Positions 4,024-5,512 of a DNA stretch of 64,000 nt are shown here, piece after piece. The position numbers and the translations under genes were made by a program. This stretch comes from Haliscomenobacter hydrossis DSM 1100. Its GTDB lineage: Bacteria; Bacteroidota; Bacteroidia; Chitinophagales; Saprospiraceae. Under the pieces are notes generated by a model. The model was given only the letters and a program-made list of their open reading frames with translations, was not told the origin of the DNA and made no database searches. The stretch spans positions 4,403,001 to 4,467,000 of the forward strand of contig NC_015510.1 of NCBI RefSeq assembly GCF_000212735.1. The letters run 5' to 3'. Every line of letters starts with the position of its first letter. The first letter of the stretch is position 1.

Positions 4024-4053
4024 TAACTCCCATTACGCATTTTTTATCGCAGA
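4024..4053. repeat. Left terminal arm of palindromic repeat 1, cut off by the IS
   Basis: Bases 4024-4053 are the exact reverse complement of 5483-5512 at the far side of the IS110 element. Joining 4053 to 5302 restores a left terminal inverted repeat identical to the right one. The two pieces are therefore one palindromic element of about 241 bp, split by the IS insertion. Confidence 0.85.
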
Positions 4054-4077
4054 TGAACTGTGATCAAAAGCAAGGAA

Positions 4078-5070
4078 TTAAACACATTTTTTTTGAATAG
4101 TGAAATTAGGGTCATACAATCGTCCCGATTTCACAACTCCAAAAACAATACGCGCTAGTTTATGCATGACGGCAGTCAAAGCTATTTTACCGTTTTTTTC
4201 TTTAGCGATGATACGTTGGTAAAGGGCTTTACAAGTCGGGTTGTGATTCATGGCACTACGGGCACAGTTAAAGAGTAGTCCCCTAATTTTGCTGTTGCCT
4301 TTCTTGGTGATGAATCTTCGCCCTCGGACTGATTTACCGGAAGAAAACTCAGATGGAGTGAGTCCCAGGAATTTAGCAAAAGCTTTAGCACATTCAAAAG
4401 AACTAAAATCCCCAAAAAGGGTAACCAAGGCTTCGGCGGTGGTTTGACCAATACCTTTGACGGAACTGATTCGCTTAACTAAATCGCATGCTTGAGCCTC
4501 TTCGATTTGAGGTTTGATTTGAGCCTCTAAATCCGCAATAGCCAAGCGCACACTATGCAAAACCTGCTCTAAAGCACGCACAGCAACAGGATTAGGGTCT
4601 ACCAAAAATTGAAAAGCATGCAACTGGTTTTTGAGTTGGCCTTCTTGTTTTTGTAGCGAAACAAGAGCAGAAAAAGCCTCTTTTCGATTTTTTTCAATAC
4701 TGCTGGGCATGCGGTAGACTTGAGTTTTAAGGGTCTGCCCTAGTTGAGAAAGTGTCTGAGCATCCTGGTCATCTGTCTTGTTGGTTTTCATGAGTAGTTT
4801 GGCCATTGAGCGACTTTGAATCGGATTGACAACCGAAAAGGTAGCGCCGACCTTATCTAGGGCATGGATCAGTCTCTGGGAATAAGGCCCAGTATGTTCC
4901 AAAATAAAGAATTTGTCTTTTAGTTCAAGCTTGTTCAACCACTCGAAAATGTCAGCTAATTCATTGGTAATTTTGGCTTTCACCCACCCTCCTTGAGCTT
5001 GAGGATAGGCTACTACAAGTTCGTCTTTAGAGACATCCACACCAACATAAATTTGCGACAAAGTTTGCAT
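4078..5070 (-). CDS. IS110-family transposase (bridge-RNA-guided recombinase)
   Basis: 330 residues, usual for the family. The N-terminal RuvC-like DEDD domain shows Asp12 (VGVDVS), Glu58 (ILEHTG), and Asp100 and Asp103 (KTDDQDA). A helical segment spans about 120-195. The C-terminal Transposase_20 domain begins with helix-hairpin-helix SSVKGIGQTTAEAL near 202 and contains the serine motif PSEFSSGKSVRG near 239-250. Members of this family recombine a circular donor with target DNA under a bridge RNA encoded in the element; the candidate RNA lies immediately upstream at 5100-5265. All expected catalytic residues are present, so the gene is probably active. Confidence 0.96.
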   Translation of the reverse strand: MQTLSQIYVGVDVSKDELVVAYPQAQGGWVKAKITNELADIFEWLNKLELKDKFFILEHTGPYSQRLIHALDKVGATFSVVNPIQSRSMAKLLMKTNKTDDQDAQTLSQLGQTLKTQVYRMPSSIEKNRKEAFSALVSLQKQEGQLKNQLHAFQFLVDPNPVAVRALEQVLHSVRLAIADLEAQIKPQIEEAQACDLVKRISSVKGIGQTTAEALVTLFGDFSSFECAKAFAKFLGLTPSEFSSGKSVRGRRFITKKGNSKIRGLLFNCARSAMNHNPTCKALYQRIIAKEKNGKIALTAVMHKLARIVFGVVKSGRLYDPNFTIQKKCV

Positions 5071-5099
5071 AATCCGCTTATTTTTGTGTTAACGATTTC

Positions 5100-5265
5100 T
5101 TCGAAGTGCTTCATCACCGATCAGCCATCTTCGTAACGCGGGCTCACGGCCCAATGAACTGTTCAGCTTGGAGTGATGATTGGGAGTGGGATCTAACATC
5201 TGCGACGGGCTTTCAAGCCCTAGTAAAGGTCTGATTTTATCCACTCCCCACTTCTTTTCGATTAC
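5100..5265 (-). ncRNA. Predicted bridge RNA of the IS110 element
   Basis: On the minus strand there are two stem-loops in the order known for IS621. The first (5250-5181, outer stem GGGAGTGGAT with ATCCCACTCCC, inner hairpin 5220-5207) has CCTTTACT (5229-5222) on one side. These 8 bases equal the left target flank (5308-5301). On the other side is TCGCAGA (5205-5199), complementary to the right target flank (4053-4047). The second (5179-5111, outer stem TCATCAC with GTGATGA, inner hairpin 5152-5140) has ACAGTTCAT (5162-5154), equal to the element's right end (4061-4053). It also has TACGA (5135-5131), complementary to its left end (5301-5297). All four guides meet at a TC core. Ends of the RNA are approximate. 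Confidence 0.75.
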
Positions 5266-5299
5266 AAAAAAAACATTTTATTGGACATCGCAAACGTAC

Positions 5300-5512
5300 G
5301 AGTAAAGGAGTACACGCGGAGTTTCAGAGGTCTCTATTATTGAAGGTTGGGTTCTTTACCCTAATCACGGCATTGTTACTTGATTTAGGCAAGATTTTCC
5401 TAGAGCACAAACTCCAGCCACCGCAGGTGGCAAACTCCTTAAAACTAAAAAACTCTGCGGAACTCCGCGTGTACTCCTTTACTCTGCGATAAAAAATGCG
5501 TAATGGGAGTTA
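5300..5512. repeat. Palindromic repeat 1, main body
   Basis: This is the rest of the palindromic element disrupted by the IS. It shares nearly its whole length with 23818-24081. A copy-2 segment of about 36 bases, from the end of its left arm, is absent here. The right arm (about 5444-5512) is complementary to the left arm split across 4024-4053 and 5302-5325. It contains the palindrome CCACCGCAGGTGG. No open frame. The DUF262 stop codon lies 2 bases past its end. Confidence 0.85.

Follow-up and report, generated by a model that had tools for sequence, protein, structure and literature searches.

A Haliscomenobacter hydrossis IS110-group element with a predicted bridge RNA that matches its target site and its own ends

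The window, a 64,000-nucleotide stretch of the Haliscomenobacter hydrossis genome, contains an insertion sequence of the IS110 group that almost certainly moves by bridge-RNA-guided recombination. RNA-guided systems of the bridge RNA kind were described in 2024. Bridge RNAs have been predicted for 85.7% of the IS110-group elements (PMC11208160), thus the element of the window belongs to an already known kind. What the present analysis adds is the predicted junction promoter of the clade, the register of the crossover and a case of siblings in one genome that are naturally aimed at two separate repeat families. A preliminary description of this DNA had proposed a natural Bacteroidota bridge-RNA system, an IS110 element whose bridge RNA can be read against its own target and ends. 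All of these sequence features are present and support the proposal; expression of the RNA and recombination would follow by analogy with IS621. The element offers a bridge-RNA system of a Bacteroidota lineage that can be read from its sequence. Its donor site is kept among close relatives and siblings in the same genome show natural retargeting, features that make it a useful starting point for programmable recombinases in this phylum.

The element, its transposase and its target repeat

The features of the element and its surroundings are collected in Table 1. The long non-coding end lies 5′ of the transposase, as expected for the IS110 group: on the minus strand about 230 bp separate the start codon from the left end, which begins with CGTACGTTTG at 5300, whereas the right end, ACAGTTCAT, finishes at 4053, only about 25 bp past the stop codon. 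A T (5301 and 4053) is common to both element junctions.

The site of insertion is one arm of a dispersed repeat of approximately 250 bp with inverted arms. Segment 4024-4053 is 100% complementary to 5483-5512, and 5300-5323 is 100% complementary to 5461-5484, the two partner segments sharing the two-base overlap TC. Because the flanks are perfect reverse complements of 5461-5512, this segment represents the uninterrupted target (empty site), located inside the same window. By this sequence comparison the junctions of the element are fixed by the partner arm, independently of the guide matches, and the boundaries given earlier (about 4054 to 5299) are borne out. The exact element occurs once in the H. 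hydrossis genome (four contigs with 8,771,651 bases in total, 8,371,686 of them in the first).

Table 1. Coordinates of the element, its predicted RNA and its target in the window
Feature	Position	Strand	Basis or remark
Right target flank	4024..4052	-	Second piece of the repeat arm split by the element
IS110-group insertion sequence	4053..5300	-	About 1,248 bp; sequence, blind scan, empty site in partner arm
IS110 transposase, 330 aa	4078..5070	-	ORF and profile matches
Predicted bridge RNA	5100..5286	-	Start inferred from predicted junction promoter; 5100 is the limit given in the preliminary description; fold
3′ arm, loop 2 outer stem	5111..5118	-	Stem search, fold
Right donor guide CGT[T]ACGA	5131..5138	-	Complementary to the first left-end bases (including the T), with one extra base
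Hairpin between donor guides	5140..5152	-	Covarying pairs, fold
Left donor guide ACAGTTCAT	5154..5162	-	9/9, equals right end; identical in siblings L002 and L036
5′ arm, loop 2 outer stem	5172..5179	-	Pairs with 5111-5118; fold; 19/200 shuffles as good, weaker than loop 1
3′ arm, loop 1 outer stem	5182..5189	-	Stem search, fold
Right target guide TCGCAGA	5199..5205	-	7/7 complementary to right flank
Hairpin between target guides (GGGC...GCCC)	5207..5220	-	Covarying pairs, fold
Left target guide CCTTTACT	5222..5229	-	8/8 with left flank
5′ arm, loop 1 outer stem	5241..5248	-	Pairs with 5182-5189; stem search, fold
TACGTTTG, fits Bacteroidota -7 box TAnnTTTG	5291..5298	-	Sequence; consensus from PMC7366714 and PMC9723704
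Left target flank	5301..5323	-	One piece of the repeat arm split by the element
Intact inverted partner arm, uninterrupted target sequence	5461..5512	+	Sequence comparison within the window

The transposase was correctly described as intact and of IS110 type: its reading frame is uninterrupted and it passes the profile cut-offs for IS110-family RNA-guided transposases (NF033542, 193.3 bits, cut-off 140), for the N-terminal DEDD/RuvC domain (PF01548, 55.1 bits, cut-off 29) and for the C-terminal Transposase_20 domain (PF02371, 84.9 bits, cut-off 21.3). The profile of the TIGR-Tas system (NF052498) scores 33.3 bits, below its cut-off of 100 bits, and this assignment was rejected. When a profile built from the window protein and four relatives was compared with proteins of solved structure, IS621 was the best match (E 1.8e-51) and ISCro4 (PDB 9t56) the second by sequence (E 3.6e-50). 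By eye, from the alignments, residues D12, E58, D100, D103 and S244 correspond to D11, E60, D102, D105 and S241, the catalytic residues of IS621 (PMC11208158), with which the protein thus shares the composite active site of DEDD and serine residues. The proteins of two relatives, L037 and L038, have Ala where the window protein has D103, the fourth of the acidic catalytic residues; despite this replacement their target guides still fit their own sites (13/15 and 14/15).

The target repeat is abundant. Counting its own position, a 61-base probe from it gave at least 41 genomic matches, with 40 of the 101 first-look candidates scored, and 19 distinct two-arm copies (29 loci, L007-L035) can be aligned, with arms and interior conserved over about 250 bp. 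For the 14-letter target, 13 sites were found in the genome when up to one mismatch was allowed (control, 1). The sole exact site is the partner arm; 11 of the 12 others have a final G in place of the A called for by the guide. That several insertion sequences insert specifically into REP repeats has long been known (PMC1525189), and IS621 also targets a repeat, the REP element of E. coli (PMC11208160), in place of the Haliscomenobacter repeat found here.

The predicted bridge RNA

Four guide segments had been placed in two stem-loops upstream of the transposase, with matches of 8/8, 7/7, 9/9 and 5/5. We found all four on the minus strand at these places and with these matches. Loop 1 corresponds to both target flanks and loop 2 to both ends of the element, in the order left target guide, right target guide, left donor guide, right donor guide (LTG-RTG-LDG-RDG), which is the arrangement expected of a bridge RNA. 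All guide letters match (29/29), 8+7 of them with the target flanks and 9+5 with the element's own ends. The segment assigned to the left end, TACGA (5131-5135), does match at all five letters, but it is longer than had been thought: it reads CGT[T]ACGA and covers seven left-end bases. The one extra base in this right donor guide fits the discontiguous pairing described for IS621 (PMC11208160). By eye, similar segments can be recognized in L002, L036, L037, L038 and L046.

In the published accounts of IS621 (PMC11208160, PMC11208158) the RNA is likewise encoded within the left end, ahead of the transposase, and has two loops; the order and polarity of the guides, for which a likeness to IS621 had been claimed, agree with that description (PMC11208160), as does the discontiguous right donor guide. 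A difference is the length of the right target guide, seven letters here and 4 bp in native IS621, although the core may have been counted differently. In ISEc21, also of IS110 type, a non-coding RNA precedes the transposase and has short stretches matching the two strands of the target, and natural redirection has been noted in a relative (PMC11187229); we compare it by description only, its RNA being described as a 70-100-nt seekRNA (PMC11187229). Elements of the IS1111 group share related DEDD transposases with a guide RNA, but there the RNA lies downstream of the transposase (PMC11187229, PMC11208160). Here it is predicted upstream, and membership in the IS1111 group was rejected.

Folding of 5071-5299 (minus strand), suggested earlier as a check, gave an energy only modestly better than that of shuffled sequences (z -1.50, 15/200 shuffles as good). 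The value for 5105-5255 was similar (z -1.90, 10/200 as good). As these energies are weak, folding energy was not used as evidence. Conservation of the stem-loops in homologues, on the other hand, was found. In an alignment of 16 sequences the inner hairpins of both loops co-vary: each of 7 predicted pairs has two-sided changes in part of the sequences, and two of the 7 are broken in 3/16 sequences. RNAalifold, run on the same alignment, predicted only these inner hairpins and not the outer stems. An outer stem of loop 1, with 8-13 positions and at most one mismatch, can be formed in 16/16 elements, with differing sequence; in 12 of the 16 it is equalled by at most 8/200 shuffles, and in the remaining four by 14 to 62/200. 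For loop 2, the fold of the window sequence shows a clear outer stem, but in the majority of the 16 elements such a stem does not reach significance. Rfam gave no match at gathering score in the window; four sub-threshold matches of snoRNA type in 5060-5330 were regarded as due to chance.

Guides and targets in related elements, and alternative readings

Relatives were collected from the own genome, from samples at the level of family, order, class and phylum, and from named genome contigs. With the own genome counted in each sample, matches were found in 4/199 genomes of the family (E 1e-60), 6/396 of the order (1e-45), 3/395 of the class (1e-45) and 15/395 of the phylum (1e-50). A second profile scan of the named genome contigs, with alignment, added at least 80 loci; the first scan of these contigs found no relative, and two scans of viral contigs found none. 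Three additional, distant IS110-type matches (L003, L004, L005) were seen in the own genome.

We screened 116 loci (L001, L002 and L036-L149, thus without L003-L005 and the repeat loci L006-L035), and recognized a transposase in 111. The threshold of 170 bits was reached by 48 loci, 22 of which were left out for missing one or both end motifs. From the remaining 26, four were removed: L043 (identical to L036), L045 (with the printed flanks of L037), and L047 and L048 (flank truncated where the contig stops). The final set comprised 22 elements, the window's element included. In L038, L041, L123 and L142, which have several left-end motifs, one was picked by eye.

For the comparison of guides with targets we used the window's element and 15 relatives, taking a single copy for each near-identical set. 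Such copies sit at various sites and match them to a similar degree: L149, the best-matching of four, matches 14 of 15 letters and represents L129, L140 and L146 (12, 13 and 12); L128 stands for L139 (13 and 12), L130 for L142 (13 each) and L136 for L143 (13 each). With the guides placed by hand beside the loop 1 hairpin, the targets being in view, 203/240 letters of the 16 elements matched the own target, vs a mean of 101 when targets were permuted (sd 11.2, maximum 160; 0/100,000 permutations as high). When 11 representatives and only non-core letters were counted, the score was 114/132 vs 46.5 (sd 8.7, maximum 95; 0/100,000 as high). At these fixed positions the own target ranked first in 14/16 elements, with ties with another target in L037 and L127. 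L036 and L040 fit the target of another element better, the own target being second, and in L044 the left guide matches 8/8 letters of the own target and the right guide 2/7. With free guide positions the own target was first in 15/19 elements, four of them tied; this version of the test is noisy because taking the maximum over positions raises the background. The preliminary description had held that related copies at sites unlike loop 1 would count against the reading. Most relatives fit their own guides, but the fit is poor in L036, L040 and, for the right guide, L044. Taken as a comparison of sequences, guides and targets co-vary across the relatives.

The clearest case is a sibling in the own genome, L002 (G000:C1:5888137-5889132), whose protein is 68% identical to that of the window element. 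The donor guides of the two are identical at 17/17 letters, the target guides at 8/15 and the remainder at 138/177; the two elements also have the same ends. The site of L002, CGCGTCAT^CCGCGC, matches its own guides at 12/15 letters, with one of the misses allowing a G-U pair, and lies in another, palindromic repeat family. The target motif of L002, CGCGTYATCCGCG, has 87 sites in the genome (control, 0); by eye, many of these sites face each other in pairs. A second pair of siblings in one genome, L123 and L136, differ in three letters of the target guides, and their sites differ at two corresponding positions. Both of these site differences follow the guide (right guide TTCGGGA with TCCCGAA, TCCGGGA with TCCCGGA); the third guide change has no counterpart in the sites.

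Two further observations concern particular relatives. The right flank of L044 starts with TCGTACAT, which is similar to a left end of this clade. L125, L137, L144 and L147, all from one genome, are related element copies at sites like AACC(G/A)CC...GTTA; by eye these sites are in register with the guides, and the ends have a slightly different pattern.

Could the matches of the window element be coincidences, short stretches picked by eye out of a large search space? We scanned blindly for left ends 120-380 bp ahead of the start codon and right ends within 220 bp past the stop, leaving the guide positions free but keeping the LTG-RTG-LDG-RDG order. The optimum, 29/29, fell precisely at the junctions given in the preliminary description, and the second-ranked left end scored 27. 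Dinucleotide shuffles of the upstream region reached 24-26/29 when the junctions were free (n=200), which shows how far a free search can go, but with the junctions fixed at their independently confirmed places the maximum of 20,000 shuffles was 24/29. The earlier judgement that the matches are very unlikely to be accidental holds, and a chance origin, refuted by the shuffles together with the guide-target co-variation, retains practically no probability. On four relatives the blind scan gave no result as clear as that for the window element. L002 scored 26 and L038 27 (both tied elsewhere) and L037 27, all three at most two bases off the motif-based junctions; L036 (25, tied) was not placed at its junctions.

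The upstream region might instead be merely a structured 5′ leader that regulates the transposase, the matches having arisen in some other way. There is a precedent of sorts in ISPpu9, an element residing in REP sequences, which is reportedly regulated by two small RNAs and by the 5′ structure of its mRNA (PMC8450116). A leader, however, does not account for a match split into four segments in the order of IS621, two of them complementary rather than identical, nor for the co-variation of guides and targets between elements, and the chance level lies far below the observed match; we regard this explanation as very improbable. A rather unlikely, though more serious, alternative accepts the same mechanism but takes the present copy for a relic, which arrived by means of these guides and is now immobile. 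The single occurrence of the exact element, in spite of the 13 near-matching target sites, speaks for a relic; against it stand the intact reading frame with all five catalytic residues, the complete set of 29 matching guide letters and the intact parts of the predicted junction promoter.

Crossover register and the promoter at the joined ends

In the preliminary description all guides met at a TC core repeated at both junctions. This appears to be off by one. In IS621 a dinucleotide precedes the crossover; it ends in a nearly invariant T, its first base varies more, and cleavage of the top strand takes place behind the T (PMC11208158). By this geometry the target would be CCTTTACT^CTGCGA and the donor ACAGTTCAT^CGTACG: the T is common, as is the near-invariant T of IS621, and the C would be coincidental. 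The donor reads AT^C here, as opposed to CT^ in IS621. The base following the T at the right junction varies (T in 10/22, C in 8/22 and G in 4/22 elements, the window's included), which argues that the C of the window's TC is a coincidence. In 15/16 representatives this base is the one encoded by the hand-placed right target guide, L044 being the exception. The T itself was present at both junctions in 22/22 elements, but both end motifs used in the search contained T and the left one also C, so the constancy of these bases was imposed by the search. We had also considered a mixed core, with the donor's TC on the left and TC, TG or TT of the target on the right, whose left TC was likewise imposed by the motif. 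This idea was dropped after the structural account of IS621 with its cut behind the invariant T, since with such a cut the next base is simply part of either the right target or the left end.

We propose that the excised circle, as in IS621, would join the right end to the left end, and that this would assemble a Bacteroidota-type promoter across the donor site, from which the bridge RNA would then be made. Loop 1 would pair with the target CCTTTACT/CTGCGA and loop 2 with the donor ACAGTTCAT/CGTACG. The composite DEDD/serine active site would cut the top strands just after the T, and strand exchange and resolution would lead to an insertion without target duplication beyond the one common base.

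Promoters of Bacteroidota have a -7 box, TAnnTTTG, with a partner TTTG near -33 (PMC7366714). The box covers -12 to -5 (PMC9723704), which by our own reckoning puts the TTTG at -36 to -33 for a spacing of 20 bp. In the window element the -33-type partner, CTTG, sits in the right end, and is 20 bp from the -7 box of the left end only once the ends join. When the ends of the 22 elements were joined in the same way, [CT]TTG stood exactly 20 bases before the left-end TA in 22/22 (16 distinct right ends), vs 0/22 when the left flanks of the integrated elements were read. Neither [CT]TTG nor its distance was contained in the search motifs; TA..TT of the -7 box was part of the left-end motif. The full box TAnnTTTG is present in 12/22 elements and is partial in the others. 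Judged by sequence, a Bacteroidota-type promoter, [C/T]TTG-N20-TA, would arise once the two ends meet in the circular form. IS621 also has a promoter rebuilt at the junction of right and left end, in its case sigma70-like (PMC11208158, PMC11208160). In the parts of the open-access literature covered by our search, a Bacteroidota version of the IS110 junction promoter was not found.

On balance we slightly favour a broader reading, in which this Bacteroidota IS110 clade makes its guide RNA from the excised circle only, the donor site forming most of the 20-bp spacer between -33 and -7, and in which the target guides track abundant structured repeats of the host, siblings in one genome being aimed at different repeat families. 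The exactness of the 20-bp spacing suggests a coupling of guide production to excision, in a phylum whose promoters follow another code.

The spacing extends beyond the final set. Among the 26 loci outside it, 5 have no end motif, and by eye NTTG stands at the same distance in 20 of the 21 others, L132 being the misfit; four of these loci have ATTG, and two (L043 and L045) repeat members of the set.
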